Assembly (NCBI RefSeq): GCF_000226565.1
Contig: NC_016041.1
Span: forward strand, 3,410,001-3,474,000
DNA from: Glaciecola nitratireducens FR1064
Lineage (GTDB): Bacteria; Pseudomonadota; Gammaproteobacteria; Enterobacterales; Alteromonadaceae
Direction of reading: 5' to 3'
Length of the DNA stretch: 64,000 bases
Below are positions 4,569 to 55,466 of this stretch, piece by piece (position 1 is the stretch's first letter; every line of letters starts with the position of its first letter). Position numbers and translations under genes: made by a program. The notes beneath the pieces are model-generated. The model was given only the letters and a program-made list of their open reading frames with translations. It made no database searches and had not been told where the DNA came from.

Positions 4569-4598
4569 TGATTTCAATATCATTACACCAACAACACT

Positions 4599-10487: not shown

Positions 10488-10504
10488 GTCGGTCTCATTT
10501 TAAG

Positions 10505-38357: not shown

Positions 38358-39101
38358 TTATGAAAATAGCCAAAAATACAACTTTGCTAATAGAGTTGCA
38401 GCTATATTTTGGCTTGTTTTTTGTTGCCCTGTAAACACGTCTTCCTTCGGGATATTTTTTGGTTCTAGGGAAAGAAACTGAAATACACGTTCAAGCGTTT
38501 TTGAATGTTCACTTGCTAATACTGACTGCTCAACTACGAGCACTTGGTTTGCGTCCACCAGCTGATACAATAAATCAAACTGACTTTTGTAACGACCACG
38601 AGTTAAATAAGAATGGTCTCGATAGGCATGCGCAAAAGGACACAATGGTAAGGCCTTACGCCAACCTTTCATGCGCCAAGGTTCAATTAAGAACGCAATA
38701 AATGGAGAGTAAGACTCTAATCCTTTATCTTTTGTCATGTTGTAGTGAGAAAAAGCTCGTTTTACGGGGTCGCGTATCATCACAATAAATTTAGCATGCG
38801 GATTGAACACAACACACGCTTTCAGGAATGCAGGGTGGAATAAAGTAATGGGCGTACTATCTAAAATATACCCTTCACCTGCGTAGTGTGATAATTTTTT
38901 AGCATACTTTTGCCTAGCAAAGTCCGTTTTATCGCTAGCAGCAGCATATTCAGGATCATCAAATACGTGCGCCTCTTTGCCCTCAACCATACAAATATCG
39001 GGGTGCTGACTTAAAAAATGTGCCATGGCGGTCGTGCCGCATTTTTGAAAGCCAATAATATGGACATTTGGCACGGGAAACGTTGCTATTTTTTTTTGCA
39101 T
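38358..39101 (-). CDS. Sulfotransferase (PAPS-dependent)
   Basis: 247-aa sulfotransferase transferring sulfate from PAPS, most likely to a glycan. 5'-phosphosulfate loop GFQKCGTTAMAHFL (about residue 17-30) and 3'-phosphate-binding IVMIRDPVKRAFSHYN are both clear. Divergent from a glycosyltransferase gene with 55 bp between starts. Confidence 0.9.
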   Translation of the reverse strand: MQKKIATFPVPNVHIIGFQKCGTTAMAHFLSQHPDICMVEGKEAHVFDDPEYAAASDKTDFARQKYAKKLSHYAGEGYILDSTPITLFHPAFLKACVVFNPHAKFIVMIRDPVKRAFSHYNMTKDKGLESYSPFIAFLIEPWRMKGWRKALPLCPFAHAYRDHSYLTRGRYKSQFDLLYQLVDANQVLVVEQSVLASEHSKTLERVFQFLSLEPKNIPKEDVFTGQQKTSQNIAATLLAKLYFWLFS

Positions 39102-39156
39102 TGATTAGTTTGTTGCTGTATTGATAAGCTTCCATTTGAGACAAGGATACACCGTA

Positions 39157-40099: not shown

Positions 40100-40918
40100 T
40101 TAGGCCAATATAGCTTCAATACTTTGTACAATTTCATCTTGGCTGTATAAGCCGAAACAGTCCATTTGCATAATAGCGTTTTGCTGGTGTTTGAGCTTTA
40201 GAATTATATCATCTGAATAGACGCGCGTTTTTGCTTCAAGAGACAGTGGCTTTGTTTGCACCACGTTGGCCGCGTTAAATAACGCTTGCCCGTTTGTTTT
40301 TATAATATCCTCATAACGAATAATTGTTGAATTTGCCGCGACAAATTGGCGTGCAAACCACTGATAAATTATTAATTGCCGTTGCAATTCGTCTTTTTGT
40401 GATGACAGCACTTGCTTCAAAGAAGCATCATTATTCTCACCCGCAGGTAGGCTTCCTTTTGATACGGGAAGATTAACGGTCCACCAAGACAGCAGTACAT
40501 CTACTGGATTTCGCACAATACAAGTCACGTTAAAGTGTTCGGATAGTTCTGATAGAAAAGCTGTAAAAAGAGCATTTTGCTTTATAAATAATTGTATATC
40601 TTTACCAATATATTTAGGGACTTTAATTTTACCGCGTTTAGCAATGACTTCTCGTTTGCCCTTAACCACAGATAAGCCAACTGGATTATCGATTTCTAAA
40701 CCGGCATTGTCACCATGCTCAAATTCGGTGCCTTGGTATAAGGCTTGTTGAAAATCGTTATACTTTTGAGAAACGACTTTCACTACATTGCTGCTATTTA
40801 AATTTAATTGACTTGGATTTATAGGCTCATGTAAGGCAACGATGTTATTTTGTTGATTAAGTATATGACAACATAATGTTGTGCCAGAGCGAGGAATGCC
40901 AGTGATGAGATATTTCAT
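40100..40918 (-). CDS. Sulfotransferase-family protein
   Basis: 272 aa. N-terminal LITGIPRSGTTLCCHIL is the PAPS phosphosulfate loop; TCIVRNPVDVLLSWWTV is the 3'-phosphate loop. No signal peptide, so cytoplasmic. Preceded by a strong terminator that separates it from the upstream Ala/Thr-rich protein gene in the same direction, so it needs its own promoter or read-through. Confidence 0.86.
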   Translation of the reverse strand: MKYLITGIPRSGTTLCCHILNQQNNIVALHEPINPSQLNLNSSNVVKVVSQKYNDFQQALYQGTEFEHGDNAGLEIDNPVGLSVVKGKREVIAKRGKIKVPKYIGKDIQLFIKQNALFTAFLSELSEHFNVTCIVRNPVDVLLSWWTVNLPVSKGSLPAGENNDASLKQVLSSQKDELQRQLIIYQWFARQFVAANSTIIRYEDIIKTNGQALFNAANVVQTKPLSLEAKTRVYSDDIILKLKHQQNAIMQMDCFGLYSQDEIVQSIEAILA

Positions 40919-40948: not shown

Positions 40949-40974
40949 AAAAAAGGCCAGCATAGCTGGCCTTT
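40949..40974 (-). terminator. Strong terminator of the S-layer-like gene
   Basis: Perfect 10-bp stem aaaggccagc/gctggccttt (40952-40961 with 40965-40974), loop of 3 nt; read leftward it runs directly into a T tract. Fits an abundant monocistronic message. Confidence 0.95.
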
Positions 40975-40992: not shown

Positions 40993-42372
40993 TTACTGAC
41001 TAACGACTAGGGCTACAGTATCTGTAGACTCGTCAGACAAGTTAACAGTCTGAGTCGTTGCTGTAATGTTACCAGAAGTTGCTTCAATTTCGATCGTAGC
41101 AGAAGTTCTAGTTTTACCTGTTAATGTAACTAAATCAGTTGCTTTGATTGAAAGTACTGAGTTACCGGGAACAGTACCCGTTGCAGCAGTACCGGCTACA
41201 GCAGTAGTGCCATCTTCAGAACGGAACGAAGTTGTGTAAGCAGCTGGGTTAACACCTTTGTTTATGATGTAAACACGCTGGTTATACGAATCGAAAGTCG
41301 TTAAGTAAGGAATGGCAATTGAAGTTGTATCATAAACGATAGAACCTAAGTCATTCGTAATAGCATCATCAACTAAAGTAACAGAATAAGAACCGCGATT
41401 GATTACTTCTTTAGTTACAGCATTATTTACACAAAGATGCACTTGGTCAGTAGTCACGTCAACAGTGCCTGCAGTAGTTGCAGTAGATTCTGTAGCATTC
41501 AACGTTAGCGCTTCCGATACCGCACCACATGTTGCTGCAGCAGCACCAAACCACGTACCGAATGTAAAGTCACCAGTAAAGCGAACTGCTTGCGATGCAT
41601 CTAACACGTCTGCTAATGCAGTAGGTGCAGAAGCTGGAGTCAATGTTCCGGTTGATAAATATGTTGTACCCACTGAAGCAGCAACTCCACCAACAGTCGC
41701 CAAAGTAGCACTGATGCCTGGGTTTGTGCCAGATGTAGTAAATTCTTTAAAGTCTTTAGCTACGCTTGCAGTAGAAGTAGTTGCAGCCGCTACCACACCA
41801 GTAGTCGTAGCTTTCACAGTTGCAATTGCACCAGATTTAGTGTAGAGCGCACCAGTACCGCCAACAGCAGTAGTTAGTGTTTCATGCATTGTGTAAGTCA
41901 ACGTTGCTGGAGCTGTTTGTGAAATTTCTAAGCCGGCAATCGCTAGCGTAAAATCATTGGCAATAGCAATTGCATCCGCAAGGTTAGCATCAGTTGTGAC
42001 TTGAAAAACAGCCGATGTACCTTTGTCAGCGCCACCAGATAGCAAAGTAATACTTGGAGCTTGAGTAGGACCCGCAACGGACAGCGAAGCTGACGCGATA
42101 CCAGACAGAGTTGTAAATCTTGCATTCGCTAGCTGGATTCGAACGTAACGAGTCGTCGCTTGCGGCACTGCAAAACCTGCATTAAAAACTGTGTTAAGCT
42201 GGTTTCCGGCAGCAGCAACAGTCAAGAAACCATCGCGCAGGTTAGCTGCTGCGATTGCTTCTTGGGCATAGTTAACTGTTGGTACTGTCGTTAGATCGAT
42301 ATCAACTGCCGCGTTCGCAGATGCTGTGAATAAAGCTGCAATTGATACAGCTAGTAATTTTTTGTTTAGCAT
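40993..42372 (-). CDS. Secreted Ala/Thr-rich protein, candidate S-layer (Slr4-like) protein
   Basis: 459 aa. Clear Sec signal peptide (MLNKKLLAVSIAALFTASANA, cleavage before AVDID). The mature part is very rich in Ala, Thr, Val and Ser, poor in Lys/Arg/Trp, with two Cys (TCGAVS and HLCVNN), a composition typical of secreted beta-rich lattice proteins. No enzymatic motif seen. SD agggg lies 6 nt before the ATG, and a textbook terminator follows. It lies directly downstream of a T2SS pseudopilin operon, so it is a likely secretion substrate. The Slr4 S-layer family of marine gammaproteobacteria is the best analogy I know, but identity was not tested. Confidence 0.6.
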   Translation of the reverse strand: MLNKKLLAVSIAALFTASANAAVDIDLTTVPTVNYAQEAIAAANLRDGFLTVAAAGNQLNTVFNAGFAVPQATTRYVRIQLANARFTTLSGIASASLSVAGPTQAPSITLLSGGADKGTSAVFQVTTDANLADAIAIANDFTLAIAGLEISQTAPATLTYTMHETLTTAVGGTGALYTKSGAIATVKATTTGVVAAATTSTASVAKDFKEFTTSGTNPGISATLATVGGVAASVGTTYLSTGTLTPASAPTALADVLDASQAVRFTGDFTFGTWFGAAAATCGAVSEALTLNATESTATTAGTVDVTTDQVHLCVNNAVTKEVINRGSYSVTLVDDAITNDLGSIVYDTTSIAIPYLTTFDSYNQRVYIINKGVNPAAYTTSFRSEDGTTAVAGTAATGTVPGNSVLSIKATDLVTLTGKTRTSATIEIEATSGNITATTQTVNLSDESTDTVALVVSQ

Positions 42373-42697
42373 TTAAAACCCCTAAGAGTGTAGTTAAGTA
42401 TTCGTTTGTCGTGGCGCACTGCCAACATAATATTCTGGAGGACGTTGCACCAGACATCCCTTTTAGAGTACAACACTGAATTCCAGCGTTCAACTTTTTT
42501 TATCAATTAACCTGTTGCTCAATTTAACAACATTGCAGGTCAAGGGTCATACTCTGTCTGTAACAAAACCTTTGGTGTCAACCAGAATGCTAATTTATAA
42601 CATGCTGCTGATTTTTATCAAGTATTATTTTTTAGGCTTAGGTATTAAAACAGGCTCTTTAATCATGTAGCTTTAGTTCTCATTTTCATCAAGTTAG
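42373..42697. other. Leader/promoter region of the S-layer-like gene
   Basis: 325 bp between gspK-like stop and the S-layer-like start, both leftward. AT-rich. A TTGACA-like sequence (reverse of tgtcaa at 42576-42581) is present but without a good -10 at normal spacing. A small inverted repeat catcaag/cttgatg (42687-42710) overlaps the gspK stop. The length allows a separate promoter and a long 5' leader. Confidence 0.5.
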
Positions 42698-43717
42698 TTA
42701 AGGCTTGATGACCATGGGTGGGTTATTGCCGCTGCCAACGTGAATAAGGCAAACAATTTGATTCTTTAATTTGCTTTCTTTCGCCTGACCTAAATCAATT
42801 TCATTTTGTAATTTGCTGTTTGTTATGGGATAAGATACCATCACGCTAAATTGTTGGCCGCCCAGTGTTGAAAGATGTTGTTCAGATAAGCCCGCAATGC
42901 TCGGTTCAACTAAATAAGCATCAGATAGCGTGGAGAACCAAAGGCCACTGTCTCTCATTTCTATCAGCCTATCGATAGAAGTTGGCCAAAAAATTCGCCA
43001 AAGAGATATTGGTACTTGATTAAGATTGAGTACCGAGGAACGTTGCAGCGAACAATGTGACAAGAAGTCAGGGTGCAATGTAAGAAATGCTTGCCAATGT
43101 TGTACTAAGAATAATTCACTGCAACTTTGTAATAAATAATTGCGAATATTTTGATAATTTTTGCCATCTTTCCCAGCGGGTTTTTGTGTGTAGTCCCCAT
43201 CAGCATAATCAAACAGACTATCTAGCATTCTATTAGTCTGCAAAGCATCTTGATTTTGGCTTTGTATCCATTTTTTTAACCAGCGCTGGCCGCTTGTATT
43301 AACCGATAACAAACCTCGTTGACTTTGAATGCTATAGCTAAATTGCTTTTGCTCAAATTCATATACGTGGCCATCCACACGAATTTCATCACCCACAATA
43401 AGATTGATAAATTGGTCATCTTCATTTCGAGCAAAGCCTTCGGGATTAATGCCTTGACTGATACCCGCAATGGTTAAGCGCTGTGTAGCTAGCAAGTATG
43501 TTAATTGATTGGCTTTAGAAATTGCTGCGGCCTTGTTACGTAAGTTTTCCTTGGCGCTAACCGCTAAGTTTAGTCGCGACTCCAGCAAAACATTCGCACC
43601 TGTAATCACAAGACTAATGATCAGCAGCAGTACCAGTACAGCAAGCAACACAATACCTTGCTGCTTTGCATGCGTCTTGCTGAAACTTTTTCGCGTGTAC
43701 CTTATATTAAAACTCAT
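42698..43717 (-). CDS. gspK: T2SS minor pseudopilin GspK-like
   Basis: 339 aa. Prepilin-type N-terminus with QQGIVLLAVLVLLLIISLV lacking Glu at +5, which is the hallmark of GspK. The body contains the large GspK insert with LLSVNTSG, SLFDYADGD (metal/loop region) and VLNLNQVPISLW. Start chosen at ATG 43717; a TTG at 43726 is less likely. It overlaps gspJ. Last gene of the leftward E-F-G-H-I-J-K operon; at the pseudopilus tip with I and J. Confidence 0.85.
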   Translation of the reverse strand: MSFNIRYTRKSFSKTHAKQQGIVLLAVLVLLLIISLVITGANVLLESRLNLAVSAKENLRNKAAAISKANQLTYLLATQRLTIAGISQGINPEGFARNEDDQFINLIVGDEIRVDGHVYEFEQKQFSYSIQSQRGLLSVNTSGQRWLKKWIQSQNQDALQTNRMLDSLFDYADGDYTQKPAGKDGKNYQNIRNYLLQSCSELFLVQHWQAFLTLHPDFLSHCSLQRSSVLNLNQVPISLWRIFWPTSIDRLIEMRDSGLWFSTLSDAYLVEPSIAGLSEQHLSTLGGQQFSVMVSYPITNSKLQNEIDLGQAKESKLKNQIVCLIHVGSGNNPPMVIKP

Positions 43718-44369
43718 ATTGACCAAACAAAATCATTTCTGGCGGTATTTCAACATTCACAGGATTAATTGGTGTAGCTAACAACCAGATTGTCGAACTG
43801 CCATCAGTAGGATTAGATTGTTCGACCATAATTGAAACAGCTTCGGGTAACATGGCCTTTTTGGGTGTAAATGTTGATTGCCACTCATTATCAACTATGT
43901 AGTTAAAATACGCGGGGGCGTTAAATGTGTGTACTTTAATCACGGTTTGCGTGTGCTGATTGCGATACCACAGGTCATAGATAACCTTAGATTGCTGGAT
44001 TCCAGACCGAGCAAAAGATTGCGATTTTATCTCCCATGTAATGTAGCTAGGAATGTTAGTCGAGTCGTCAAGTGGCGCGTTAGTGATCATACTAAGTTTG
44101 CTGGCAGTGCCGTTGAAAACCGCATTATCGGGGTGATATAACAATGCGCCTTGAATACTCCGGCGAAACCATTTGGCGGCCAAATTGACGGATTGATTTA
44201 GTTGCTTTTGTTCTAGTTTTGCAAAGCTTTGCCATACGATGGGCAAAGCGGAAGCTAGTAATCCCGTGGTCATTGCCAATATCACTAACACCACTAGCAT
44301 TTCAACTAAGGTGAATCCCACATTAAATGAGCTATTTTTAGAAGAGTGTGAACGCCGATATTTTACCAT
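43707..44369 (-). CDS. gspJ: T2SS minor pseudopilin GspJ-like
   Basis: 220 aa. Class III leader ending before GFTLVEMLVVLVILAMTTG with Glu at +5. The remaining beta-rich part (WQSFAKLEQKQLNQSVNLAAKWFRRSIQGAL) fits GspJ in length and position between I and K. Confidence 0.82.
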   Translation of the reverse strand: MVKYRRSHSSKNSSFNVGFTLVEMLVVLVILAMTTGLLASALPIVWQSFAKLEQKQLNQSVNLAAKWFRRSIQGALLYHPDNAVFNGTASKLSMITNAPLDDSTNIPSYITWEIKSQSFARSGIQQSKVIYDLWYRNQHTQTVIKVHTFNAPAYFNYIVDNEWQSTFTPKKAMLPEAVSIMVEQSNPTDGSSTIWLLATPINPVNVEIPPEMILFGQYEF

Positions 44370-44377
44370 ATTGATGA

Positions 44378-44809
44378 CTAGCGCTCTTCATCAGGAAAGT
44401 TTACTTGCCACTGTTTTACTTGTTCTGTATTTATTCGTGTAATGAGGCTACTACCTTGATAAATATCAAGGCTGACATTAAACAATGCCACGTTCCAATT
44501 TGGCTGTCTTTTAAATACCTGATCTTGGCTTTGCTTAATTAGCTCTGCGCGCCATTCAACCCGGTGCTGATTAATGTTCAATTCACCCTGCCTGGTTTGC
44601 TCAAACGTTTGTAGCGATAATATGTCCAAGCTCTGCTCAAAAATCTCATCAGCCGCAAGATGTTGACCGATTTTGTCCACTGTTCGCTGAGCAGTGCCTA
44701 TCCATTCGCTCACTAAGGCAATCGCAAAGGATAAAATAACCAAAGCAACTAGCGATTCAAGCAAGGTAAAGCCTGATTGTCGGTAAGCACCTTCGCTAGC
44801 TTTCATCAT
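44378..44809 (-). CDS. gspI: T2SS minor pseudopilin GspI-like
   Basis: 143 aa. Leader of 12 residues then GFTLLESLVALVILSFAIALV; short body as in GspI. Overlaps gspH-like by 14 bp, and gspJ starts 8 bp after its stop. Confidence 0.83.
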   Translation of the reverse strand: MMKASEGAYRQSGFTLLESLVALVILSFAIALVSEWIGTAQRTVDKIGQHLAADEIFEQSLDILSLQTFEQTRQGELNINQHRVEWRAELIKQSQDQVFKRQPNWNVALFNVSLDIYQGSSLITRINTEQVKQWQVNFPDEER

Positions 44810-45239
44810 TTTGCCTTAACTCGGTTAATTCACAGTAAGGCGAGGTAACGTTGAAATACATAGTCTCATCAGATTCATTTATGATAGATACTCTGCTGGT
44901 GTGACAATAACCATTGTTTTGTATTAATAACGCTGGCTCAAACAGCATTTTAAAGTCTAAGGGCTCTGCCAAAAACGTATTAATTTGCGCTTCTGAATCG
45001 ATTATTATTTGCTGCTGCAATAAACTGGCATTTAGGGCTATGCTGGGCAAAACACCGCGCACTTTACTAATATCGTCAGCTCGCTGGCTAGCATTAAGGG
45101 TCGCAAACAAATTGGGGCCGGCAACTGCCGCTATCAAACCGGTTATGACTAATACAACTAAAAGCTCAATCATAGAAAAACCAAGCTGCCTGCCCATTAA
45201 TGTTATATTAGCTTTGGGGTACATAACCCACATCGGCAT
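44796..45239 (-). CDS. gspH: T2SS minor pseudopilin GspH-like
   Basis: 147 aa. Prepilin signature LGFSMIELLVVLVITGLIAA; body ends NGYCHTSRV...SPYCELTEL with two Cys that may pair. Start ATG 45239 is supported by gaggg about 5 nt upstream and overlaps gspG by 32 bp; a shorter leader from ATG 45197 is possible. A broken paralogue with the same C-terminal pattern lies at 62827-63207. Confidence 0.82.
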   Translation of the reverse strand: MPMWVMYPKANITLMGRQLGFSMIELLVVLVITGLIAAVAGPNLFATLNASQRADDISKVRGVLPSIALNASLLQQQIIIDSEAQINTFLAEPLDFKMLFEPALLIQNNGYCHTSRVSIINESDETMYFNVTSPYCELTELRQNDES

Positions 45240-45666
45240 TTAAGCCCTCACCACCCGCTTTATTATCTGCGCCGTAACTATAAAGGTAAAAACCTTGTGG
45301 TGCATTGGCGTCTGTTTGATAAACGTAATCAACACCCCAAGGATCAAGCGGTAAGGTCTCACTTAAGTAAGGTCCGCTCCAATACTGCGCATTTTCTGAT
45401 GGTGCTACATTTAAAAACTTTAAGTCTGTTGGATAACGACTATTATCAAGCCGATAAGTTTGCAATGCCATTTTAAGCATTTTTACTTGTGTTTCTGCTG
45501 TTCTGACTTTTGAAGTATCAACTTTGCCTAAAAACTGTTGCCCTACTAGTCCGGCTAGCAGACCTAATATTACCAATACAACAAGAAGTTCTATCATGCT
45601 GAAACCACTTTGCTTATTCAAATGCTGAACCTTTTTTCTATTTTCAATTTGATATGCTTGATGCAT
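45208..45666 (-). CDS. gspG: T2SS major pseudopilin GspG
   Basis: 152 aa. SGFSMIELLVVLVILGLLAGLV prepilin N-terminus with Glu+5; GspG-specific C-terminus LPLDPWGVDYVY and YSYGADNKAGGEGLNADVGY, the calcium-binding loop. Leader of about 20 residues; aagga upstream. Forms the pseudopilus shaft. Preceded by 64 bp from gspF, where extra promoter or processing may boost its level. Confidence 0.95.
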   Translation of the reverse strand: MHQAYQIENRKKVQHLNKQSGFSMIELLVVLVILGLLAGLVGQQFLGKVDTSKVRTAETQVKMLKMALQTYRLDNSRYPTDLKFLNVAPSENAQYWSGPYLSETLPLDPWGVDYVYQTDANAPQGFYLYSYGADNKAGGEGLNADVGYVPQS

Positions 45667-45730
45667 ATGTGCGTGTTCCTTAATTAATTACTTAAAAACT
45701 ACTGAGCGTAGCCTCGCTTCTAGCTTGGTT

Positions 45731-46921
45731 CTAAATATCAATGTTAGTTGTAGCTGTTATTGCTAATATTATACCAATTATCATCGTCCCGATAAATATA
45801 CCGACTACTAGTATGGCAATAGGTTCCATTAGCGTAATGACCTTTTTCATCCTGCGTTTACACGATTCATCGTGCAATTTAGCCACCGCTTTTAACATGT
45901 TGCCGAGTTGTCCGGTTTTATCGCCAACAGCAATCAGGTTCATTGATGTTGCCGGAATTAATCTCGCTTTTTTTAATGCTTCACTAAATGCCATACCGGA
46001 TTCAATATCATTTACCATGTTAAGCGCGCGTTGCTTGCGTAACTTATAATCAGATGCATGTGCCGCTAAGGTCAAAGCTTCAATTAAACTGACTTTAGCT
46101 TGCAGCATTGCAGAGGAGAGCGCAGCCCACCTTGCAGTATCTTGCTCACTTAACCATTCACCAATAACGGGCAAGCGTAATGAAGCATTAGCAACTGCAC
46201 TGCGCACCTCTGGATGACGCAGGATTAATCCTACGGTAATTATCAGCAAAGCAATAACGGTGGCGATAATAAAAGGCGACTGATTCACTGCTCTACCCGC
46301 AGATAATACCCAATATGCGAGCAATGGAAGTTCTTTGTCACCATCAAGCATATGACTAAATTTGGGTACCACCGCAAAAAATATTATTAACATTGCTGTG
46401 ATACCAGAACCAATGAGCACTAGAGGATAAGTTATCGCGCTTTTAATGTCTGCTCTAATCGACTCTTCATACTCCATTTGCTGCGATGCATTGTTGAGTG
46501 CGAGTGTTAATTGTCCGCTCAACTCACCGGCTTTGACCAAAGGCGATACAAAACTAGGAAAAGGTAGCAAAGATGAGTCAATCGCCTCTGAGAATTTCTC
46601 TCCCGCTTCAACCTTCGCCGCAATTTCTTTAAAGCCCTGCGATATGCGCATGTTTTGATCACTTTCAGCAAGTGAATAAATGGCGTCGATTAATGAAACA
46701 CCAGCTTCTGTTAAGGTGGCTAATTCTTGAATAGGTAAAACTAAATCACTTATTTTAACTTTTTTCCCTGTGATTTTTTTTTCAGGGTTAATGCTTAAGG
46801 TTACTGCCTGTATTTCTTGCTCACGCAACTGTGCGTGAGCGTGTTGCAATGTACTGGCATCAATAACGCCATGCACACGCTGTTTCGTTTTGGTCTCTAT
46901 GCCTTGGTATAGAAACTTCAT
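45731..46921 (-). CDS. gspF: T2SS inner-membrane platform protein GspF
   Basis: 396 aa with the duplicated T2SSF domain: VLPIQELATLTEAGVSL and WAALSSAMLQAKVSLIEAL, and three hydrophobic segments (about 165-190, 215-235, 370-392). Family ending MEPIAILVVGIFIGTMIIGIIL. Overlaps gspE by 4 bp. Confidence 0.94.
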   Translation of the reverse strand: MKFLYQGIETKTKQRVHGVIDASTLQHAHAQLREQEIQAVTLSINPEKKITGKKVKISDLVLPIQELATLTEAGVSLIDAIYSLAESDQNMRISQGFKEIAAKVEAGEKFSEAIDSSLLPFPSFVSPLVKAGELSGQLTLALNNASQQMEYEESIRADIKSAITYPLVLIGSGITAMLIIFFAVVPKFSHMLDGDKELPLLAYWVLSAGRAVNQSPFIIATVIALLIITVGLILRHPEVRSAVANASLRLPVIGEWLSEQDTARWAALSSAMLQAKVSLIEALTLAAHASDYKLRKQRALNMVNDIESGMAFSEALKKARLIPATSMNLIAVGDKTGQLGNMLKAVAKLHDESCKRRMKKVITLMEPIAILVVGIFIGTMIIGIILAITATTNIDI

Positions 46922-48603
46922 ATTACCTCATCTTCGGTGGCACATACCCTAAGTACTTCTTCGACACTTGTAATGCCCTGTGCCGCTTTTAATAAGCCAT
47001 CATTGAATAAGTTGCGTGCGCCATCTTGTTTAGCTTGAAGACGTAATTTAGCAACGCCCGCTCCCGCGCTTATTAACTCCCTTAATGCGGGGGTTACTTC
47101 AACTAATTCATAAATACCTATACGACCTTTATACCCTTTGCCATGACATTTTGGGCAACCAACAGCCTTGCGCCATGTGCCTTCTTTACTTGCTTCAGGC
47201 ATAAAACTGGGGGCGTCAGTAGATTCAGCGCAATGTTCACAGAGTTTTTTGACCAAACGCTGTGCTTGAACTCCCTGAATAGTCGCGGCAATCAAGAAAG
47301 GCTCGACACCCATATCGGTTAATCGCGGAAAAACGGAACAGGCATCGTTGGTATGCAAAGTAGATAACACTAAATGACCTGTTAGTGATGACTGGACGGC
47401 TATATCTGCCGTTTCCTTATCTCGAATTTCGCCCACCATAATAACGTCAGGATCTTGTCGTAAAAAAGTACGTAGAGCTTTGGCAAAGGTATAACCAATA
47501 TCTGCACGCGCCTGAACTTGCGTAACCCCTTCTAACTGATATTCCACAGGGTCTTCCACCGTCACGATTTTTTCTTTGCCGGTGCGTAAGTCTGATAATA
47601 ATCCATACAAAGTGGTTGACTTACCGGAGCCCGTTGGTCCTGTTACTAGGACGATGCCGTTAGACAGTTTTCCCCAACGTTGTATTGTACTCAAATGGTC
47701 TGGCGCAAAACCCAAGTTAGCTAACGATAATTGCTCTCTTTTTTTAGGCAACAATCGCATTACAATTGACTCGCCATACACATCTGGTGCAGTAGACACA
47801 CGGATGTCAAAGTCTTGCCCCGCATTTCGGGTGCTAAATCTGCCATCCTGTGGCAATCTGCGTTCGGCAATATCGAGTTCGGCAAGTAATTTAATTCTAG
47901 AGGAAATAGCGGCAAAGCGAGAAATAGGCTGGCGCATGTGTTCCATTAACGTTCCGTCGATACGAAACCTAACACGCATATTCGTATCACCAGCTTCAAT
48001 ATGAATATCTGACGCTTCCAGTTGAATAGCCTTTTCCAAAAAGCTGTTAACCAGATTAATGACCGGTGCCTCTTCCGCTAGAGTCGATAAATTAATGCCC
48101 TTTTGTCCAAATAAATCAGACACTTCGCGCTCGCGTGTTAACTCATCCACAATATTCGCCATCATTGCGGAGGTTAAGAGTATGTAGTTCACATTAGCTT
48201 GTGTAATATTCGAAATGATTACCGATATTGCAAACTGATTGAATGGGTCTACAACATAAATATTACAGCTTTGCTCATTGGCGGTTGCAAAAACACCCTG
48301 TTCAATACACCAATCAATAGAAAGGCTTTGCTGCGTAGCTAAACTCAAAACATCTGCCACTAAGGGGCAATCTTGCGTGTTTTGAGCTAACGACCAATCT
48401 AACTCTATGGCTAGGTTCTCTAATAGAAAATCTTCGCTGACAAAACCAAAGCGCTTCAGCGCCTGAATATGTGTTGTTTTTTTGTCAGTCACCGACTGCT
48501 CAATCAATGCTTGTTGCTTCGAGGTGATAGCATTGGATACGACCAAGTTATTGATCAAACTTGCTTGTATTATGTTTGCATCTAATCCTAGTGGTTCTAT
48601 CAC
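46918..48603 (-). CDS. gspE: T2SS assembly ATPase GspE
   Basis: 561-aa hexameric ATPase powering pseudopilus assembly. Walker A GPTGSGKSTTLYG, Asp box VGEIRDKETADIA, His box LVLSTLHTNDA, and a tetracysteine zinc motif CEHC...CPKC near 440-475. The N-terminal 150 residues form the GspL-interacting domain. First gene of the leftward operon, start opposite the divergent gspL-like gene. Confidence 0.95.
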   Translation of the reverse strand: MIEPLGLDANIIQASLINNLVVSNAITSKQQALIEQSVTDKKTTHIQALKRFGFVSEDFLLENLAIELDWSLAQNTQDCPLVADVLSLATQQSLSIDWCIEQGVFATANEQSCNIYVVDPFNQFAISVIISNITQANVNYILLTSAMMANIVDELTREREVSDLFGQKGINLSTLAEEAPVINLVNSFLEKAIQLEASDIHIEAGDTNMRVRFRIDGTLMEHMRQPISRFAAISSRIKLLAELDIAERRLPQDGRFSTRNAGQDFDIRVSTAPDVYGESIVMRLLPKKREQLSLANLGFAPDHLSTIQRWGKLSNGIVLVTGPTGSGKSTTLYGLLSDLRTGKEKIVTVEDPVEYQLEGVTQVQARADIGYTFAKALRTFLRQDPDVIMVGEIRDKETADIAVQSSLTGHLVLSTLHTNDACSVFPRLTDMGVEPFLIAATIQGVQAQRLVKKLCEHCAESTDAPSFMPEASKEGTWRKAVGCPKCHGKGYKGRIGIYELVEVTPALRELISAGAGVAKLRLQAKQDGARNLFNDGLLKAAQGITSVEEVLRVCATEDEVI

Positions 48604-48715
48604 CTAAAAATACCCTTAAAACAATATTTGTATCAGCTATTTAGTGTTATCAAAACGCCGTAATTAGTGTATATTACATCACATTGATAACAGATGTGAA
48701 AAGGTTTATTCGTTA
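48604..48715. promoter_or_regulatory. Divergent T2SS promoter with 9-bp inverted repeat
   Basis: 112-bp region between gspE (left) and gspL-like (right). Perfect inverted repeat tgttatcaa (48645-48653) and ttgataaca (48684-48692), separated by 30 bp, plus a nested tcacat/atgtga (48679-48684 and 48694-48699). A symmetrical operator controlling both operons is plausible; protein unknown. SD aaaagg precedes the GTG at 48716. Confidence 0.5.
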
Positions 48716-49651
48716 GTGAGCGTTATCGCAAAAGTGCAGTCTGCCAGAAATACATTATTAGATAAACTTGAGGGTTTGATTGATTCATCGCCGCGCTCGG
48801 TCGATACAAACACTCAATTTTTTTATGTATATAAGGCTTTTCCCGAAGGGCTGTCAGCTGCAGAACTTAAGCAATGGTGTGCTTTACAAGAAGACCTTTT
48901 ATCTCCCTTTGCTGTAAAACATTTATATAAATACAGAAGTCATTTAGGTATTCATCTTTGGTATGCTAAACATGAAATACACGGCATACCAGAAACAGCC
49001 CTGCAAGCCCCTCCTAAAGATGGTTTCGCCACGGTTAGTGGCGAGCATTTTGATTACCAACAAACATGGACTCAAGGGGTATTAGTTGCAAACTTAGCAA
49101 TCAAGCCTACAGAACAAAATCGGGTAAAATATCCGACTTTACAAACACAAAACATTTCCAAAGCCTGGGGCATAGAGAGAGAAATAGATCGTTTGATGGC
49201 AAAACCGGCGAACTGGCTAACTTTCTCGTTTGCTATATTTGGCTTGTGTTTGCTTTGGTTAGTCATCGCCTATTCAACAATAAGCATTCAAAAACATTGG
49301 ATTACAAAACAAAACCAAGAACTAACGGAAGCGATAGGACCCCAGTTGACCGATCGCCAGTTATTGGACGATGCGCAAAACGCGGTTAAAGGATTAGACG
49401 CTTGGCGATCTGAGTATGCGAACTTTCCAAATACAATTAGCGCTAGCTTAGCTGAACTATCTGCATTAGCAGAGGTCCGTATTAACCAATGGCAATGGCA
49501 GAACAATACCTTAGTGCTAGAGTTCGTTTCAACACAAATTAATATTACTGAGTTAGTAGAAAATACGCAGCAACTTGAACGCGTAAAATCAGCTAATATA
49601 CGCCCGCACAACGATTCAAATACGTGGGTGTTAGAGTTAGAATGGAACTAA
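48716..49651 (+). CDS. gspL: T2SS GspL-like bitopic protein
   Basis: 311 aa. N-terminal soluble part (1-160), a single transmembrane segment LTFSFAIFGLCLLWLVIAY (about 168-188), then a periplasmic domain with coiled-coil-like and ferredoxin-like segments ending VLELEWN. This layout fits GspL/PilN, and the place before GspM supports GspL. Sequence is divergent, so the call rests on topology and context. GTG start, SD aaaagg. Overlaps the next gene by 10 bp. Confidence 0.7.
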   Translation: MSVIAKVQSARNTLLDKLEGLIDSSPRSVDTNTQFFYVYKAFPEGLSAAELKQWCALQEDLLSPFAVKHLYKYRSHLGIHLWYAKHEIHGIPETALQAPPKDGFATVSGEHFDYQQTWTQGVLVANLAIKPTEQNRVKYPTLQTQNISKAWGIEREIDRLMAKPANWLTFSFAIFGLCLLWLVIAYSTISIQKHWITKQNQELTEAIGPQLTDRQLLDDAQNAVKGLDAWRSEYANFPNTISASLAELSALAEVRINQWQWQNNTLVLEFVSTQINITELVENTQQLERVKSANIRPHNDSNTWVLELEWN

Positions 49652-50226
49652 AAATGTTTGATAATCTAAAAGCAACCGCGGCATACGCTGAGCTGTCGTC
49701 AAACAAGAGATTGCAATGGCTTCTGCTATTGGTATTAGCTTTGCTTCTGTTATATGTACTAAACGCCGTCAGCACGCTAATTGAAGATGAGAAAACGTTG
49801 TTAACAAGCCAAATCGGACTGCATCAACGTTTAGTTGCAGCGAAAAACACACCATTCGATCAGGATAAATTTGTACAGCAAAAGAATATCGCGCAGCAAT
49901 ACTTAAATGAATTGCCTACCGCAAGTTCTCAAAGCGCTGCGGAAGCGAGTGCATTAGCTGCTCTCGAAGCAGCATTAGGTAAAAAAGTTGAACGAAATCG
50001 TTTTAATTTATTGGGTTCAGATTTAGTACGCTTAGGAAATACTAAGTTATGGTCGGTCAGAATCGAAATAAATGGACGACTCGACGAGTCTGGTGTTGTC
50101 AATTTTTTAGATGAATTTACTACCGAAAAACCGTATCGAAGGATTGCATCGATGCAATATGCTCCTAAATCAAACAACATGTTAGTGATTGTGATTGACT
50201 ATTTATACAAAGAAGAGAGCTTATAG
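49642..50226 (+). CDS. gspM: T2SS GspM-like protein
   Basis: 194 aa. Short cytoplasmic N-terminus, one transmembrane helix (WLLLLVLALLLLYVL), an amphipathic helix, and a C-terminal alpha/beta periplasmic domain (LWSVRIEINGRLDESGVVNFL). Topology and position match GspM. ATG 49642 chosen; ATG 49654 is also possible. Its stop overlaps the next GTG by 1 nt. Confidence 0.72.
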   Translation: MELKMFDNLKATAAYAELSSNKRLQWLLLLVLALLLLYVLNAVSTLIEDEKTLLTSQIGLHQRLVAAKNTPFDQDKFVQQKNIAQQYLNELPTASSQSAAEASALAALEAALGKKVERNRFNLLGSDLVRLGNTKLWSVRIEINGRLDESGVVNFLDEFTTEKPYRRIASMQYAPKSNNMLVIVIDYLYKEESL

Positions 50227-50741
50227 TGACGAAGTTGGTAAGGCTTTATATTGCAATCGCACTATTAGTAATATTGGGCTCGATCTATTTTTCTTATCAA
50301 ACCATTTATATTGACTCCGAACGCGTCATTACCTCAGAGCTGCAGGTTATAAATGTCGATAAAACTAATTGGTCTGATACTTTTGCTAGCTTAAGCCAAT
50401 TTAACAAAAATAGGGCACTTGGCGAAACAGAAGATAAGAATAAAGCGTTGGATAGTGCTGAACAAAATGAGTTTGATCCAAATGATATATCCAAAGCAAA
50501 ATTAATTGGTATACTTTTAGAAAAGCCAGCGGCAGTGATTGTACAACTGCCAAAGCAACCCAGCATTACTGACAATATTGGTAAAACGATAAAAGTAAAA
50601 CAGGGCGAGCAAATTTTAGACGGTTGGCAATTGAACGTCATAGACCAAACAACAATTGAGTGGCGACACGTTAAAGCAAACACTTTGGTGCAACAGCGTC
50701 TTTTTGAGAATACAGACAATAAAATTAGCGAATCACAATGA
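50226..50741 (+). CDS. T2SS GspC/XpsN-like inner-membrane connector
   Basis: 171 aa. N-terminal transmembrane helix (7-25), a low-complexity linker, then a small beta domain KLIGILLEKPAAVIVQLPK...KVKQGEQILDGWQL resembling the homology region of GspC, which contacts the secretin N0 domain. No PDZ or coiled-coil domain follows, as in XpsN-type short versions. GTG start. Overlaps gspD by 4 bp. Confidence 0.72.
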   Translation: MTKLVRLYIAIALLVILGSIYFSYQTIYIDSERVITSELQVINVDKTNWSDTFASLSQFNKNRALGETEDKNKALDSAEQNEFDPNDISKAKLIGILLEKPAAVIVQLPKQPSITDNIGKTIKVKQGEQILDGWQLNVIDQTTIEWRHVKANTLVQQRLFENTDNKISESQ

Positions 50742-52906
50742 GATCCAATTACAAAATTATCGGTAAACACACCCGCAAACTCATTCAACCTTTAACAATC
50801 CTATTTGTTATTTTGATTATGAGTGGTTGCGCTACGCTAGGGGGCCCTGCTGCTAAATTAGCCAAACAAGACGATGAAACATTTTCCAAGCCAATGCGTC
50901 CTGCCAAAATAATTGAAGTGGATGAACTCGTTGATGATTCTGATTTATTAGCAGTTACCAATCAAAATAATGATAATGCAGGCACTATAAAAAGTCGGTC
51001 TACACCAACTTTAAGCATTGAACAAAAAGCAAATATTGCAAACGACGTCGTTATTCCAAAACTTGACAGCGCTAAAATGATCAGCCGATTGAGTTTTAAC
51101 AATATGTCGGTTAGTGCGTTTATTAACGAAATTTTTGGTAACCAGTTAGGGCTAAGTTTTGTTATTGAACCAAAAGTAGCAAATGCGTCTGACTTAGTGA
51201 CCATGCGCTTAGCATCCGAAGTAAACCAACAAGCACTTTACAAGATTGCAACCCAGACTCTAGCACCTTATGGTGTAACAACATCATTAAATGAAAACAT
51301 TATCGTGTTTGCTTTTTCAGAAAACGCGAGTGCTCAAGACACCCCCTTGTTGGTTAGCGGCCGCGCTTTGCCTGAGGTACCATTTACTAATCGCCCATTA
51401 TTTTACGCTTACCCAGTCAAGTCTGTGAATGCGCGGAATATACTTGGTTATATTAATCAATTGTTCAACAGTAATGAACTGACAACGCAACATGATGTTT
51501 TTAGTAATTCCTTAATTTTTCAAGGACAAAAAGCAAAAATAGAGCAGGCTGTTGCAGCTGCGAAATTATTTGATAGACCAGAAATGAGCGGTATGTATAG
51601 CGTGATTTTGGAACCTCAAATAAGTGATGTAAAAACCTTGTCGAGTAATCTCGAAAAAGTCCTCAAAACCGAAGGTTTTAATGTTGGGATTGCTGATCAA
51701 CCTGGCGTCGCCATTCGCTTACTGCCCTTAGAAAGTGTGAACCAACTTATCGTATTTGCAAAATCTCGTGAAGTATTGACGCACATAGAAAACTGGGCTG
51801 ATAAAATTGAAGTTGAAAAGCAAAGTGAAATAGAAGACGGCTTGTTTTTCTACCCCGTACAACGAACCCTCGCAAGTCATATTGTTGGCGTTCTTGGTCA
51901 ACTTGGTGTGGCAAATTACAGTGCACCTAGCGGCGAATCAGATTCACAAGATGGCGCAAATAGAAGTCTGTCACGACCAATTAATAATCCTCAACGCAAT
52001 AACGTTGGACAGTCAAATAGCGGGCAAAACGCCGGACAAAACGGGAATTATACGGTCGACGAACAACTCAACACCATCTTATTTAGTGGTAGCGGAAAAC
52101 AGTGGCAAAAAGCGCTTCCTATTATTAAAAAGCTCGACAAACCTGCTCCCTCAGTGATGGTAGAAGTAATTTTAGTTGAGGTGCAACTCAATGATTCTGA
52201 AGAAACGGGCGTGGAATGGTTAGCCAATTCTTCTTTGGGTGATTTTGATTTAAGCTTTGGTACGCTAGGAAGTTTAGGTTTGAAAGGCTCCGGTCTTAAT
52301 CTTTTTGGATTAGATAATGCAGGCAACACTCGCGCGGCAATTAATGCATTTTATAAAAATGACCGAGCAAATATTAGGTCGCGCCCCAGAATTATGGTCA
52401 AAAGCGGTGGTGAAGCATCTATCGATGTTGGTAATGAGATACCCGTTGTAACCTCAACAAGCCAAAGTACCACTGACAGCAATGCGCCTAATATTCAGAA
52501 TGTGCAATACCGAAAAACCGGGGTAATTTTAGATATCAAACCCACAGTGCATGCTTCAGGTTTTGTTGATATTGAAATTAATCAAGAGTTAAGCGAGGCG
52601 ACTGAATCGACGTCTGCAGGTAATCCGGTTATTTTAAACCGAAGTATCAGCACAACAGTCACACTCAGAGACGGTGGCTCAGTGTTAATTGGTGGCTTAA
52701 TTTCTTCTACTTCTAGTGAAGGTTCACAAGGCGTTCCAATCTTGGGGCGCTTGCCGTTAATTGGCAAACTATTTCGCAGTGATAACAATGCTCAAGACAG
52801 AACCGAATTAATGATTATGATCATACCGTACATTTTAGATACACCGGGAGAAGCAGAAGCTTTGACCGATGAATTACAAATGCAACGCATTCAATCGTTC
52901 AATTAA
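50738..52906 (+). CDS. gspD: T2SS outer-membrane secretin GspD
   Basis: 722-aa secretin. Unusually it carries a lipoprotein-type lipobox MSGC (Cys about 31). N0 domain (about 110-195), N1-N3 (about 220-475, with a Ser/Asn/Gly-rich linker), then the secretin core with RSRPRIMVKSGGEASIDVGN and the signature VPILGRLPLIGKLF. Ends RTELMIMIIPYIL and a short tail. Translationally coupled upstream; a lipoprotein gene follows 18 bp later. Confidence 0.95.
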   Translation: MRSNYKIIGKHTRKLIQPLTILFVILIMSGCATLGGPAAKLAKQDDETFSKPMRPAKIIEVDELVDDSDLLAVTNQNNDNAGTIKSRSTPTLSIEQKANIANDVVIPKLDSAKMISRLSFNNMSVSAFINEIFGNQLGLSFVIEPKVANASDLVTMRLASEVNQQALYKIATQTLAPYGVTTSLNENIIVFAFSENASAQDTPLLVSGRALPEVPFTNRPLFYAYPVKSVNARNILGYINQLFNSNELTTQHDVFSNSLIFQGQKAKIEQAVAAAKLFDRPEMSGMYSVILEPQISDVKTLSSNLEKVLKTEGFNVGIADQPGVAIRLLPLESVNQLIVFAKSREVLTHIENWADKIEVEKQSEIEDGLFFYPVQRTLASHIVGVLGQLGVANYSAPSGESDSQDGANRSLSRPINNPQRNNVGQSNSGQNAGQNGNYTVDEQLNTILFSGSGKQWQKALPIIKKLDKPAPSVMVEVILVEVQLNDSEETGVEWLANSSLGDFDLSFGTLGSLGLKGSGLNLFGLDNAGNTRAAINAFYKNDRANIRSRPRIMVKSGGEASIDVGNEIPVVTSTSQSTTDSNAPNIQNVQYRKTGVILDIKPTVHASGFVDIEINQELSEATESTSAGNPVILNRSISTTVTLRDGGSVLIGGLISSTSSEGSQGVPILGRLPLIGKLFRSDNNAQDRTELMIMIIPYILDTPGEAEALTDELQMQRIQSFN

Positions 52907-52924
52907 CCAGGAGCATTAATTTAT

Positions 52925-53491
52925 ATGAAGACCAGAGCTTACCTATTATCACTTTTAACTATTTCTATGCTAAGCGCTTGTTCTCAGCAAGAAGCAACGT
53001 CGGTCGATGAAATTTCCAGTAAATACAATACTAGTCAAACACCTGCAAAAGAAACTGAAATGAGTGGCTTTGATTGTATTGCAGAGTTTAAAGACCGTTT
53101 GTACCTATTGGGCCGCGGTGATGATTATCCTAACTTCATTGCTCAAGACATTACTATAGAGTTAATTAAACAAGACCCTGAATCGAAACTGATATCTGCC
53201 ACGTGTAAATCTGAAGTTGAGTTGGGCGTTAAATTTGCTGACGTTATTGTAGATGGCACTGCGCAACAGTCACTTGATTATTTGGAAGCTTCATTTCCAT
53301 TGGAACTGGTTGTTTTTAATGGTGAAGAAAATTGGATATTAGATACCGTTTTACAGTATCAAGTTGACGGCTTGAGTAGTCAGGAAATTCCAACGCTGAC
53401 CAAACACTTTAAAGTGATTGAATCTTATGATGAAAACAGACGAGTGCTTAAGAAGTTTAACTTAAATTACTCTGATAGTTCGTCAGATTAG
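52925..53491 (+). CDS. Lipoprotein of unknown function, last gene of T2SS operon (pilotin candidate)
   Basis: 188 aa. Lipobox LSAC (Cys about 20). The rest is a predicted mixed alpha/beta domain with two Cys (DCIAEF and ATCKSE). No family recognised. It is last in L-M-C-D and close to the secretin, the typical place of a pilotin or secretin-accessory lipoprotein, but sequence alone does not show it. Confidence 0.7.
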   Translation: MKTRAYLLSLLTISMLSACSQQEATSVDEISSKYNTSQTPAKETEMSGFDCIAEFKDRLYLLGRGDDYPNFIAQDITIELIKQDPESKLISATCKSEVELGVKFADVIVDGTAQQSLDYLEASFPLELVVFNGEENWILDTVLQYQVDGLSSQEIPTLTKHFKVIESYDENRRVLKKFNLNYSDSSSD

Positions 53492-53831: not shown

Positions 53832-55466
53832 GTGAACTGCTCAAGCTATCATTTTCTGAAAATTCCTGCGTGTGAATCATCTAGTTTTGTCACCGTACTG
53901 CAAAATTCAGTGATAAACACAAGTAGGATACTTAGCTCAACAACTCTTAACACCCCAATTAGCAAAACCACCAATACAGAGTTAAAAAACACCGGTGTTA
54001 TGTTTACATGCCCAGTCAACAGGCTTGTAAATGCATATAAGCAAATGTATAAACATATTGAAAGCAAACCATCCTTTAAAGATTTTTACAGCCACCCAAA
54101 CCGTGTAAACCTTTACTCTAAACTTTTTACTAATATGAAGTTGGATAGTATTGGTTTAATTGCTATTGATACCTGTGTTGTCAAAAGCCTCTTACTGGCA
54201 GAGGATTGGCTAGACATCGAAATTGGTAGATTTCGTTATGAAGCCATAACTGCAAGAGTTAATGTTGATATATCAGCAGATGATTTTAATAACATTACTG
54301 CCCTGCACGCTGCAGATATAGCACTGTTTAATGAAGCTAAGAAAATATTTGTAGCACGATGGGAACAATTAATAAATAAAAAGCAGTGTATTACTCATAA
54401 AAATAAAAAACTGGTAATTCATGTGGGGCCACCAAAAACCGGCACCTCTGCTATTCAATATTGGTTTAAAAAAAATCGAGAGTCTCTGATTAGTGAAGGT
54501 ATCTTGTACCCTGAACATAATCTTGATGGCAACAATATAAGTAGCGGGAACGTTGATTGTTTAATTACCAACCGAACAGAAAGTGAATCCGCACACTACG
54601 ACCATTCAAAAGCGCGTAAAGTGATGCAAGAGCTGAATGATTCAACTGCTGACATGTTGTTATTATCTTCAGAACACTTTTTTTATTACTTACCGTGGTT
54701 ATTTGCTTATTTGCCTAATGCAGAGTTCATATTTTACGTCCGGCATCCCCTTTCAGCGCTTGAATCCGGGTACCATCAACAGGTGAAACGACATAAGTAT
54801 ACTCGCCCTTTTGCAATGCCAAGTAAGATCAGTTTTCAACAACTCGATATACTCACGAAGATGGCAAAAGAGTTCTCACCTAAGCTCTTAATAAGCTATT
54901 TTGATGAAAAATTATTTCACAATGGCTCATTAATAAATGATTTTTTGCACCTGCTACCAAAAAAATCAAATATTACTGCAAATGTCGAACGTATTAATTC
55001 GCAATATTGCCATGAAGCCATCGAATTAATGCGGTTTTGCAATCACTTTGCGAGTAATGACTTATTGGCACGTTTAGACAAATTTTTGCAAGAATATAGT
55101 CAAAGCCAACCTTCGTTTTCTTATATCACAAAAACCGACGTGAACAACTTCTCTAGCGATATGCAGCATCAAGCGAAACTGCTGGCTAAACAAGTGCCAC
55201 AATTAAGACTAGAAAAAATGATGCAGATTATTACTAATTACGCACCAAGAGAGAATGAAGCACAGCACGAAGAATTGGATTTCAGTGACATAATCGCCAA
55301 ACTCAAATCCAAAGATTTGCTACTAGTAAAAAAACTAATAGATGAAATTGATAACAAATATATCAGTGAGCATTTTTCCATTGTTGAACTGCTGGCGCTC
55401 ACAATTAAGGAAAAACTGCTATTAAAGGCAAGAAAGGTATTCTTTTTAGCATTCAAGAGCAGCTGA
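53832..55466 (+). CDS. Sulfotransferase with degenerate N-terminal sulfotransferase-like half
   Basis: 544 aa. The C-terminal half (about 195-470) is an intact sulfotransferase: HVGPPKTGTSAIQYWF (PAPS loop, about 196) and FYVRHPLSALESGYH (3'-phosphate loop, about 300). The N-terminal half looks like a second, decayed sulfotransferase: FLKIPACESSSFVTVLQ where an active copy would read like IPKTGGTSF, VMFTCPVNRLVNAY where LRDPVERFLSAY would be expected, and a typical C-terminal LHAADIALFNEAKKIF. GTG start is uncertain, with no strong SD. Cytoplasmic, no signal peptide. Confidence 0.78.
   Translation: MNCSSYHFLKIPACESSSFVTVLQNSVINTSRILSSTTLNTPISKTTNTELKNTGVMFTCPVNRLVNAYKQMYKHIESKPSFKDFYSHPNRVNLYSKLFTNMKLDSIGLIAIDTCVVKSLLLAEDWLDIEIGRFRYEAITARVNVDISADDFNNITALHAADIALFNEAKKIFVARWEQLINKKQCITHKNKKLVIHVGPPKTGTSAIQYWFKKNRESLISEGILYPEHNLDGNNISSGNVDCLITNRTESESAHYDHSKARKVMQELNDSTADMLLLSSEHFFYYLPWLFAYLPNAEFIFYVRHPLSALESGYHQQVKRHKYTRPFAMPSKISFQQLDILTKMAKEFSPKLLISYFDEKLFHNGSLINDFLHLLPKKSNITANVERINSQYCHEAIELMRFCNHFASNDLLARLDKFLQEYSQSQPSFSYITKTDVNNFSSDMQHQAKLLAKQVPQLRLEKMMQIITNYAPRENEAQHEELDFSDIIAKLKSKDLLLVKKLIDEIDNKYISEHFSIVELLALTIKEKLLLKARKVFFLAFKSS

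Follow-up and report, generated by a model that had tools for sequence, protein, structure and literature searches.

We analyzed a stretch of 64,000 nucleotides from Glaciecola nitratireducens FR1064 (NC_016041.1, positions 3,410,001-3,474,000 of the forward strand; hereafter the window), which carries at positions 40993-53491 a complete-looking type II secretion system (T2SS) whose 11 genes lie on two opposite arms, next to a gene for a secreted protein of 459 amino acids (aa). The open reading frames (ORFs) that an initial annotation had assigned to this T2SS were all present in an ORF listing of the window, and so was the layout that it had described, with E to K running leftward and L, M, a C/N-type gene and D running rightward from a gap of 112 bp between the starts of E and L (48604-48715). 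Relatives were drawn from 196 genomes of the window's family, the Alteromonadaceae (the same draw for all family counts), and from a divergent-locus set composed of the window and 20 non-redundant loci of relatives; tree and locus counts leave out repeats of genomes already included (L090-L095, L098, L106, L110 and L115). The genes of the block are as follows:

40993-42372, minus strand: secreted, Thr/Ala-rich, acidic protein of 459 aa, candidate surface-layer (S-layer) protein ('slr1'), found in 13/13 block genomes
42698-43726, minus strand: GspK-like minor pseudopilin, 342 aa (weak model match, conserved place)
43707-44369, minus strand: GspJ-like pseudopilin, 220 aa (prepilin motif and place)
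44378-44809, minus strand: GspI-like pseudopilin, 143 aa (prepilin motif and place)
44796-45239, minus strand: GspH-like pseudopilin, 147 aa (prepilin motif and place)
45208-45666, minus strand: GspG major pseudopilin, 152 aa (TIGR01710, 134.9 bits, above cut-off)
45731-46921, minus strand: GspF inner-membrane platform, 396 aa (PF00482)
46918-48603, minus strand: GspE ATPase, 561 aa (PF00437, 449.7 bits)
48604-48715, no strand: intergenic region of 112 bp separating the arms
48716-49651, plus strand: GspL-like by place, 311 aa, no Pfam or NCBIfam match, used as block marker
49624-50226, plus strand: GspM-like, 200 aa (weak match to the XpsM model, below cut-off)
50226-50741, plus strand: short GspC/XpsN-like N protein, 171 aa, with an apparent membrane anchor and a region weakly resembling the homology region (HR) of GspC
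50738-52906, plus strand: GspD secretin, 722 aa (PF00263), with a lipobox at Cys31
52925-53491, plus strand: small exported protein, with a lipobox in the window copy

The core of a T2SS, namely the ATPase E together with F, G and D, was recognised by Pfam and NCBIfam models, with GspE and GspD scoring above their Pfam cut-offs and below those of TIGR02533 and TIGR02517, respectively. The same collections detected N-methylation (prepilin) motifs in H, I and J, the last just below cut-off, and gave weak matches, below cut-off, for K (1.3e-4) and M (2.7e-4) against their family models. L, N and the small protein matched none of these models and were assigned from their place and their conservation in relatives. 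This part of the N protein aligned weakly with the HR region of the genome's own canonical GspC (probability 19, score 28.5), and the protein is too short to hold a PDZ domain. With neither the co-directional C-to-N order nor a PDZ-bearing GspC, the block falls outside the definition of a canonical Gsp operon. The lipidated secretin proposed initially turned out to be a general trait, as Cys31 is invariant in 12/12 aligned block GspD sequences, window included. The lipoprotein proposed for the last gene holds for the window copy (52925-53491) but not for relatives in general: judged by eye, one of ten listed relatives (L076) has a lipobox and the other nine have ordinary signal peptides. A homologue of this small protein lies beside the block in 11/20 divergent relatives' loci, on the strand opposite to D in L078 and L079.

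This block is not the only T2SS of the genome. Four secretins were found, comprising the block GspD, PilQ, one that is MshL-like by appearance and a canonical GspD, and a second, canonical gsp operon, for which the initial annotation had suggested a search, runs co-directionally at about C1:3890310-3901945. Its C, D, E, F, G, K and L genes score above NCBIfam cut-offs; H, I, J, M and N were assigned by place, M and N having no match at the threshold used. Since a canonical GspC (above the TIGR01713 cut-off) is kept outside the block in all 13 block genomes of the family, the block supplements the general T2SS and does not replace it. A search of the genome for prepilin peptidases found none within the block, one above cut-off outside it at C1:2965881, and one further match below cut-off.

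The block marker GspL was present in 13/196 family genomes, and block-type GspD occurred in the same 13, with 53-60% identity in 11 relatives and 46% in G024, while the next-nearest GspDs of the family sample reached 35-38%. A homologue of the 459-aa protein adjoined the block in each of these 13 genomes and in 20/20 divergent loci, so that the constant co-occurrence which the initial annotation had proposed to check was borne out. As refuting outcomes it had named a genome with no other T2SS and a block that most relatives carry without the 459-aa gene; we found another T2SS, and among divergent relatives no block lacking this gene. A match to the 459-aa protein in G010 (E 6.6e-4, with internal stops) was excluded as probable chance, which gives 13 rather than 14 genomes. 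The G024 homologue aligned partly in the family search, yet a protein of 589 aa stands beside the block there. All 11 T2SS genes in order, the opposite arms and the 459-aa gene were found in the window and in all 20 relatives' loci, one of which lies beyond the family, in Neiella litorisoli (L145/L095). Culturable relatives with the block include Neptunicella marina, Bowmanella pacifica and Agaribacter marinus. The distribution is patchy, since seven of the eight block genera also hold sampled genomes without the block, and its parts come and go together. A profile of the 459-aa family (A2) had matches in 6/394 genomes of the order, and the plasmid collection gave no match to the 459-aa protein and, for GspD, distant matches only (nine records). 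A full block of the Alteromonadaceae type was also seen in a contig filed under a metagenome-assembled genome (MAG) of Crocinitomicaceae (Bacteroidota; L097), which is probably mis-binned.

In 8/20 divergent loci, a tandem second homologue of the 459-aa protein adjoins the first, split over two frames in L145; this count is a lower bound because a number of loci break off shortly beyond the first copy. The second copies are 26-31% identical to the first (in seven family genomes), and the two families align over 402 columns. A short remnant of such a second S-layer-like gene at L077 2798-2983 (Lacimicrobium alkaliphilum) suggests that the second copy was lost there.

The 459-aa protein itself begins with a Sec-type signal peptide by eye, and its mature part consists to 59% of Thr, Ala, Ser, Gly and Val, with a net charge of -15 and two cysteines (Cys282 and Cys314) whose conservation among 12 aligned homologues is 90% or higher; its mass is estimated at about 44 kDa. 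Its codon adaptation index of 0.718 is the highest of the 45 window genes; 15 ribosomal genes average 0.712, and 1000 synonymous versions of the gene drawn from the codon usage of the window reached 0.646 at most. Judged from codon bias alone, the protein is probably abundant. The second-highest value of the window (0.706) belongs to a subtilase-type protease of 1625 aa at 23546-28423 on the minus strand. Furthermore, the profile of the mature protein aligned with that of the secreted proteins at eight loci of the type of Slr4 from Pseudoalteromonas tunicata (hhalign score 115.6, probability 98.3, 366 columns), as against maxima of 30.3 for three reversed and 16.9 for 20 column-shuffled controls. 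At two co-directional loci, L147 and L148, the secreted proteins can be no more than distantly related to the 459-aa family (score 43.4). A confident AlphaFold model of the 459-aa protein (mean predicted local distance difference test score, pLDDT, 86.5) is nearly all beta, without a meaningful neighbour in the PDB. Searches of the PDB by sequence gave no match at E 1 for the single protein and three matches at chance level (E 0.15-0.49) for the family profile, and the search by fold gave five matches at E <=0.001, all of them antibody chains. A model of a Slr4-type protein (mean pLDDT 64.9) matched immunoglobulin (Ig)-like adhesins and other proteins with low template-modelling (TM) scores of at most 0.21, and the RsaA-like beta-helix reported for Slr4 was absent among the 50 matches listed for either model. 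Given its high codon adaptation and its remote homology to Slr4-type proteins, the 459-aa protein is best read as a surface (S-layer) protein. Linkage, codon adaptation and remote homology thereby lend support to the idea, put forward in the initial annotation, of a specialised secretion line for a surface protein.

Beyond the 459-aa gene and the last gene of the rightward arm, the window holds genes of a different kind:

40100-40918, minus strand: sulfotransferase-like protein, 272 aa, adjoining the 459-aa gene and block-specific
39121-40083, plus strand: glycosyltransferase-like protein, 320 aa, whose own sequence has no Pfam match and whose relatives in L100 and L147 match glycosyltransferase group 1
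38358-39101, minus strand: second sulfotransferase, with relatives near the pair in L079, L100, L101, L105, L109 and L147
30492-33907, minus strand: dTDP-rhamnose-type genes rmlB, rmlD, rmlC and rmlA, neighbours of many block loci
53832-55466, plus strand, on the other flank: weak match to a sulfotransferase family, below cut-off
55594-56763, plus strand: polysaccharide pyruvyltransferase-like protein, below cut-off
56821-59289, plus strand: RgpF-like rhamnan synthesis protein with TPR repeats

The strict linkage of the glycosyltransferase and the sulfotransferase to the block is a new result and the least expected one. At E <=1e-10, all 13 block genomes have the 272-aa sulfotransferase, which is 44-46% identical in the 12 relatives (taking the longer of the pieces for G140); of the other 183 genomes, one has it (G019, 32%). 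At a threshold of 1e-5 the 320-aa glycosyltransferase follows the same pattern, 13/13 block genomes plus G019. In G019 the two genes are neighbours, and the 20 kb read there show no evident gene for an S-layer protein; in G016 the glycosyltransferase lies on another contig. The pair and the second sulfotransferase come after the S-layer-like gene in L100, L101 and L105 and after the T2SS in L109 and L147; the contig of L102 ends within the sulfotransferase. Genes for dTDP-rhamnose are present in the window and, inside the stretches fetched, in 10/20 divergent loci (L076, L077, L081, L082, L084, L085, L089, L099, L112 and L145, the last via the overlapping L095), a lower bound since these stretches vary in length. 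The pair was absent from all eight Slr4-type loci, for each of which 20 kb were fetched. In the literature, searched mostly outside subscription journals and accessible in part, we found no mention of sulfotransferase genes in linkage with an S-layer T2SS, although PMC4483657 lists such an ORF. In G140, the window's genus-mate, both enzymes look interrupted (L076 2781-3613 and G140:C3:239218-240117): the sulfotransferase lies in two frames and the glycosyltransferase contains stops, with T2SS profiles matching throughout, which may reflect decay of the tailoring pair or an error of assembly. The glycosyltransferase match in G065 has one stop.

As to where the divergent order came from, co-directional loci running from E to D and then to a homologue of the 459-aa gene were found in three Cellvibrio loci, in the gammaproteobacterial MAG L105 and in G409 (L146), some of which gave weak profile matches to L and N or none. 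A quick tree was built from 45 GspE rows, with supports from the Shimodaira-Hasegawa-like approximate likelihood ratio test (SH-aLRT) and no bootstrap. It unites the divergent blocks in a single clade (SH-aLRT 100) that is nested in a wider E-to-D lineage (SH-aLRT 98), apart from both canonical and Slr4-type GspE; the tree was used for these inner groups only because the outgroup rows are very long-branched and ungrouped. Given this tree and the co-directional relatives with an S-layer-like gene, the divergent order is best read as a derived rearrangement of an E-to-D-then-S-layer-gene operon, and not as a new principle. The argument that this order by itself points to specialisation is correspondingly weak, as sister systems with an S-layer-like gene run co-directionally. 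Three family genomes (L149, L150 and L151) carry a co-directional sister T2SS with a GspD 35-38% identical to that of the block; D is followed by a small protein there, and polysaccharide-type genes are present, with no recognised S-layer gene adjoining. In L109, a secreted-looking Ala/Ser/Thr/Gly-rich protein of 691 aa (11985-14060) between GspD and the glycosyl- and sulfotransferase genes is a candidate for an unrelated S-layer protein in the same slot.

The initial annotation had also placed the 459-aa gene at the end of the leftward arm, with a terminator of its own. It does follow K, but at a distance of 325 bp and behind an upstream region of its own that is partly conserved. A 10-bp stem with a T tail is present and can be read on both strands. 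The two elements concerned are:

40952-40974, minus strand: intrinsic-terminator-like hairpin with a 10-bp stem after the 459-aa gene, also readable on the plus strand for the neighbouring gene
about 42461-42500 and about 42373-42460, minus strand: promoter-like element and mRNA leader, respectively, upstream of the 459-aa gene and partly conserved in relatives

As the whole region holds 12 terminator-like sites versus 12.2 expected, the terminator call rests on the quality and place of this hairpin. An Rfam match to sroD over it (E 0.39, below the gathering score) was taken as chance. The 110 bases that precede the start codon show partial conservation over 21 loci, with a mean column identity of 62%, and ACTCTTGCAGGAG stands at the ribosome-binding site in 18/21 loci, with variants in the window, L076 and L089; the window leader also lacks the hairpin letters that are commonest in the other loci. 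Folded singly, five leaders form two hairpins, a longer one and a small one that covers the ribosome-binding site (z -1.2 to -2.5). Covariation among 16 rows, which leave out the five divergent leaders of L087, L097, L112, L113 and L145, showed no excess over shuffles (0.073 versus 0.080), with one pair changed on both sides, and RNAalifold gave -0.9 kcal/mol only for all 21 rows. With no covariation support and this weak consensus fold, a conserved RNA structure is not claimed, and the region is read, from its sequence, as a putative conserved promoter and leader for high expression.

Taken together, gene content and order, co-inheritance, phylogeny, codon bias and remote homology, all of them directly established, lead us to propose that the block is a second, dedicated T2SS for a single abundant surface protein, the likeliest candidate being an S-layer subunit, a reading to which we assign a probability of about 0.85. 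What follows for secretion, lattice formation, the disulfide, anchoring and regulation we infer. The precursor of 459 aa would cross the inner membrane via Sec, losing about 22 residues (cleavage site by eye), and would fold in the periplasm with one disulfide. The lipidated GspD secretin would then pass it, driven by an E-F motor and a G-K pseudopilus, and the exported protein would assemble on the cell surface. Because the block has no prepilin peptidase, its pseudopilins would need the genome's single clear PilD-type enzyme for their processing. The two arms would represent two operons fired from one intergenic region, and the S-layer gene, having its own promoter region and leader, could be expressed in large excess. 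The flanking rhamnose, glycosyltransferase and sulfotransferase genes probably make a surface polysaccharide, and the linked enzymes may be those that build the one anchoring the coat. Carried further, the T2SS, the S-layer subunit (often with a tandem second) and a glycosyl- and sulfotransferase pair that adds a sulfate cap to an O-polysaccharide of the rhamnan type, as a calcium-binding receptor for crystallisation of the coat, might constitute one functional unit, a speculative proposal that we would sooner doubt than expect to hold. If true, it would amount to a sulfated anchor for a Gram-negative S-layer, common to Alteromonadaceae, Cellvibrio and, from published gene content, perhaps Aeromonas salmonicida.

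Several alternatives can be set against these proposals. The T2SS could be dedicated to a non-crystalline surface or matrix protein, i.e. an adhesin or biofilm protein, instead of an S-layer subunit. The predicted structures lean in this direction, as the 459-aa model is beta-rich with weak Ig-like matches only and the less confident Slr4-type model resembles Ig-like adhesins at low TM-scores. We nonetheless consider this unlikely in view of codon usage at the ribosomal level, the remote homology to the Slr4-type set and a gene order and gene sizes that resemble Aeromonas sps-vapA. Canonical T2SSs usually export many proteins, and the block could accordingly be a second general exoprotein system whose neighbouring 459-aa gene is a coincidence, but this is very improbable when the gene accompanies the block in all 13 genomes and all 20 loci, when each block genome keeps its canonical GspC and when the block's own short GspC has no room for a PDZ domain. 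With regard to the linked enzymes, the sulfotransferases and the glycosyltransferase might modify the S-layer protein itself, the mature part of which is rich in Thr and Ser, or make a capsule unrelated to anchoring, marine surface polysaccharides being often sulfated. Modification of the protein fits poorly with enzymes that by eye carry no export signal, since Sec substrates leave the cytoplasm unfolded. Both variants are disfavoured by the rhamnose and RgpF-like genes near many loci and by Aeromonas, where, in published accounts, S-layer genes lie inside O-antigen clusters and the A-layer is tethered by lipopolysaccharide; we accord them a minor, though appreciable, chance.

Other observations weigh against a T2SS dedicated to an S-layer subunit. 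Tight linkage can be inherited as a unit without every part being needed. The 459-aa protein has no Pfam or NCBIfam match, so that no family model names it, and no known S-layer structure was among the 50 fold matches listed, where the query-length TM-score was 0.14 at most. What defines the Slr4-type set is gene order and place, not similarity to EAR28894, the Slr4 sequence of P. tunicata, and the alignment of this set with the second-copy family (A5) is weak (score 46.9). Moreover, related co-directional GspD loci without a match to the 459-aa profile at 1e-3 exist (L104, L107-L109, L111, L114 and L147-L151). Among them, L107, L108 and L114 are incomplete or small. In L109, L147 and L148, D is followed by a different secreted protein, but right beside D none was seen in L111 and L149-L151.

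How a T2SS chooses its substrates is an open question, and a system with one linked substrate and a PDZ-less GspC, in the same cell as a canonical T2SS, offers a clean comparison to address it. A candidate S-layer protein family of marine bacteria, named by no Pfam or NCBIfam model, also emerges from the locus, together with candidate enzymes for a polysaccharide that may anchor the coat.

Among known systems, the Xps/Hxc T2SSs possess a lipidated secretin and a short PDZ-less GspC/XpsN between M and D. The block shares both traits and a weakly XpsM-like M with them, but differs in its divergent order, its single linked substrate gene and an M that stays below the cut-off of the XpsM model. 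For the S-layer gene of NpdA in Paracidovorax citrulli, the published description reports an upstream cluster of 12 gsp genes (gsp1), in a genome with two gsp clusters (PMC10765051). This likeness to the block, an S-layer gene beside a gsp cluster and a second gsp cluster in the genome, is drawn from that description, which places NpdA systems, unlike the block, in Betaproteobacteria and other Gammaproteobacteria.

In P. tunicata, slr4 is reported to lie immediately downstream of a series of T2S genes that includes G, E, F, K and D (PMC7821379), and an earlier account describes a T2SS cluster with a Pfam 02563/02706 gene pair just upstream and leaves its identity with the slr4 cluster unstated (PMC2536512). 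The eight Slr4-type loci run co-directionally as G-E-F-H-I-J-K-L-M-x-D (L, M and x by place; L153 is incomplete at E, so that G is unseen there), followed by a secreted protein of 453-563 aa, and two of them (L159 and L160) begin with ORFs that by eye resemble export proteins of the Pfam 02563/02706 type. In L153, four proteins of 511-564 aa with signal-peptide-like starts stand in a row after GspD (3552-10923). Like the block, the Slr4 system joins a T2SS cluster to an abundant secreted beta-rich protein. The proteins at the Slr4-type loci have remote profile homology to the 459-aa family, and by eye the secretins of all eight loci have a lipobox. Unlike the block, these loci run in one direction with G first, their GspE forms a separate clade, and none of the eight has the glycosyl- and sulfotransferase pair within 20 kb.

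By anatomy, the Aeromonas Sps system appears to be the closest known one, since it agrees with the co-directional relatives in the number, order and sizes of its genes. According to PMC4413209 and PMC4483657, A. hydrophila AH-1 carries E-F-G-H-I-J-K-L-M-orf2-D-vapA after rmlB, D, A and C within an O-antigen cluster, with sizes of 551 (E), 399 (F), 144 (G), 123 (H), 139 (I), 201 (J), 340 (K), 252 (L), 198 (M), 166 (Orf2), 743 (D) and 469 (VapA), and A. salmonicida (A450) has an ORF with a sulfotransferase domain after wzt in its S-layer/O-antigen cluster. Compared from published order and sizes, the two systems share their gene set, similar gene sizes and nearby rml genes, whereas Sps runs from E to D and then to vapA and the window has E-K and L-D in divergent arms with the S-layer gene after K. 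In its anatomy, the block is a rearranged relative of coat-export systems already known in Aeromonas and Pseudoalteromonas.

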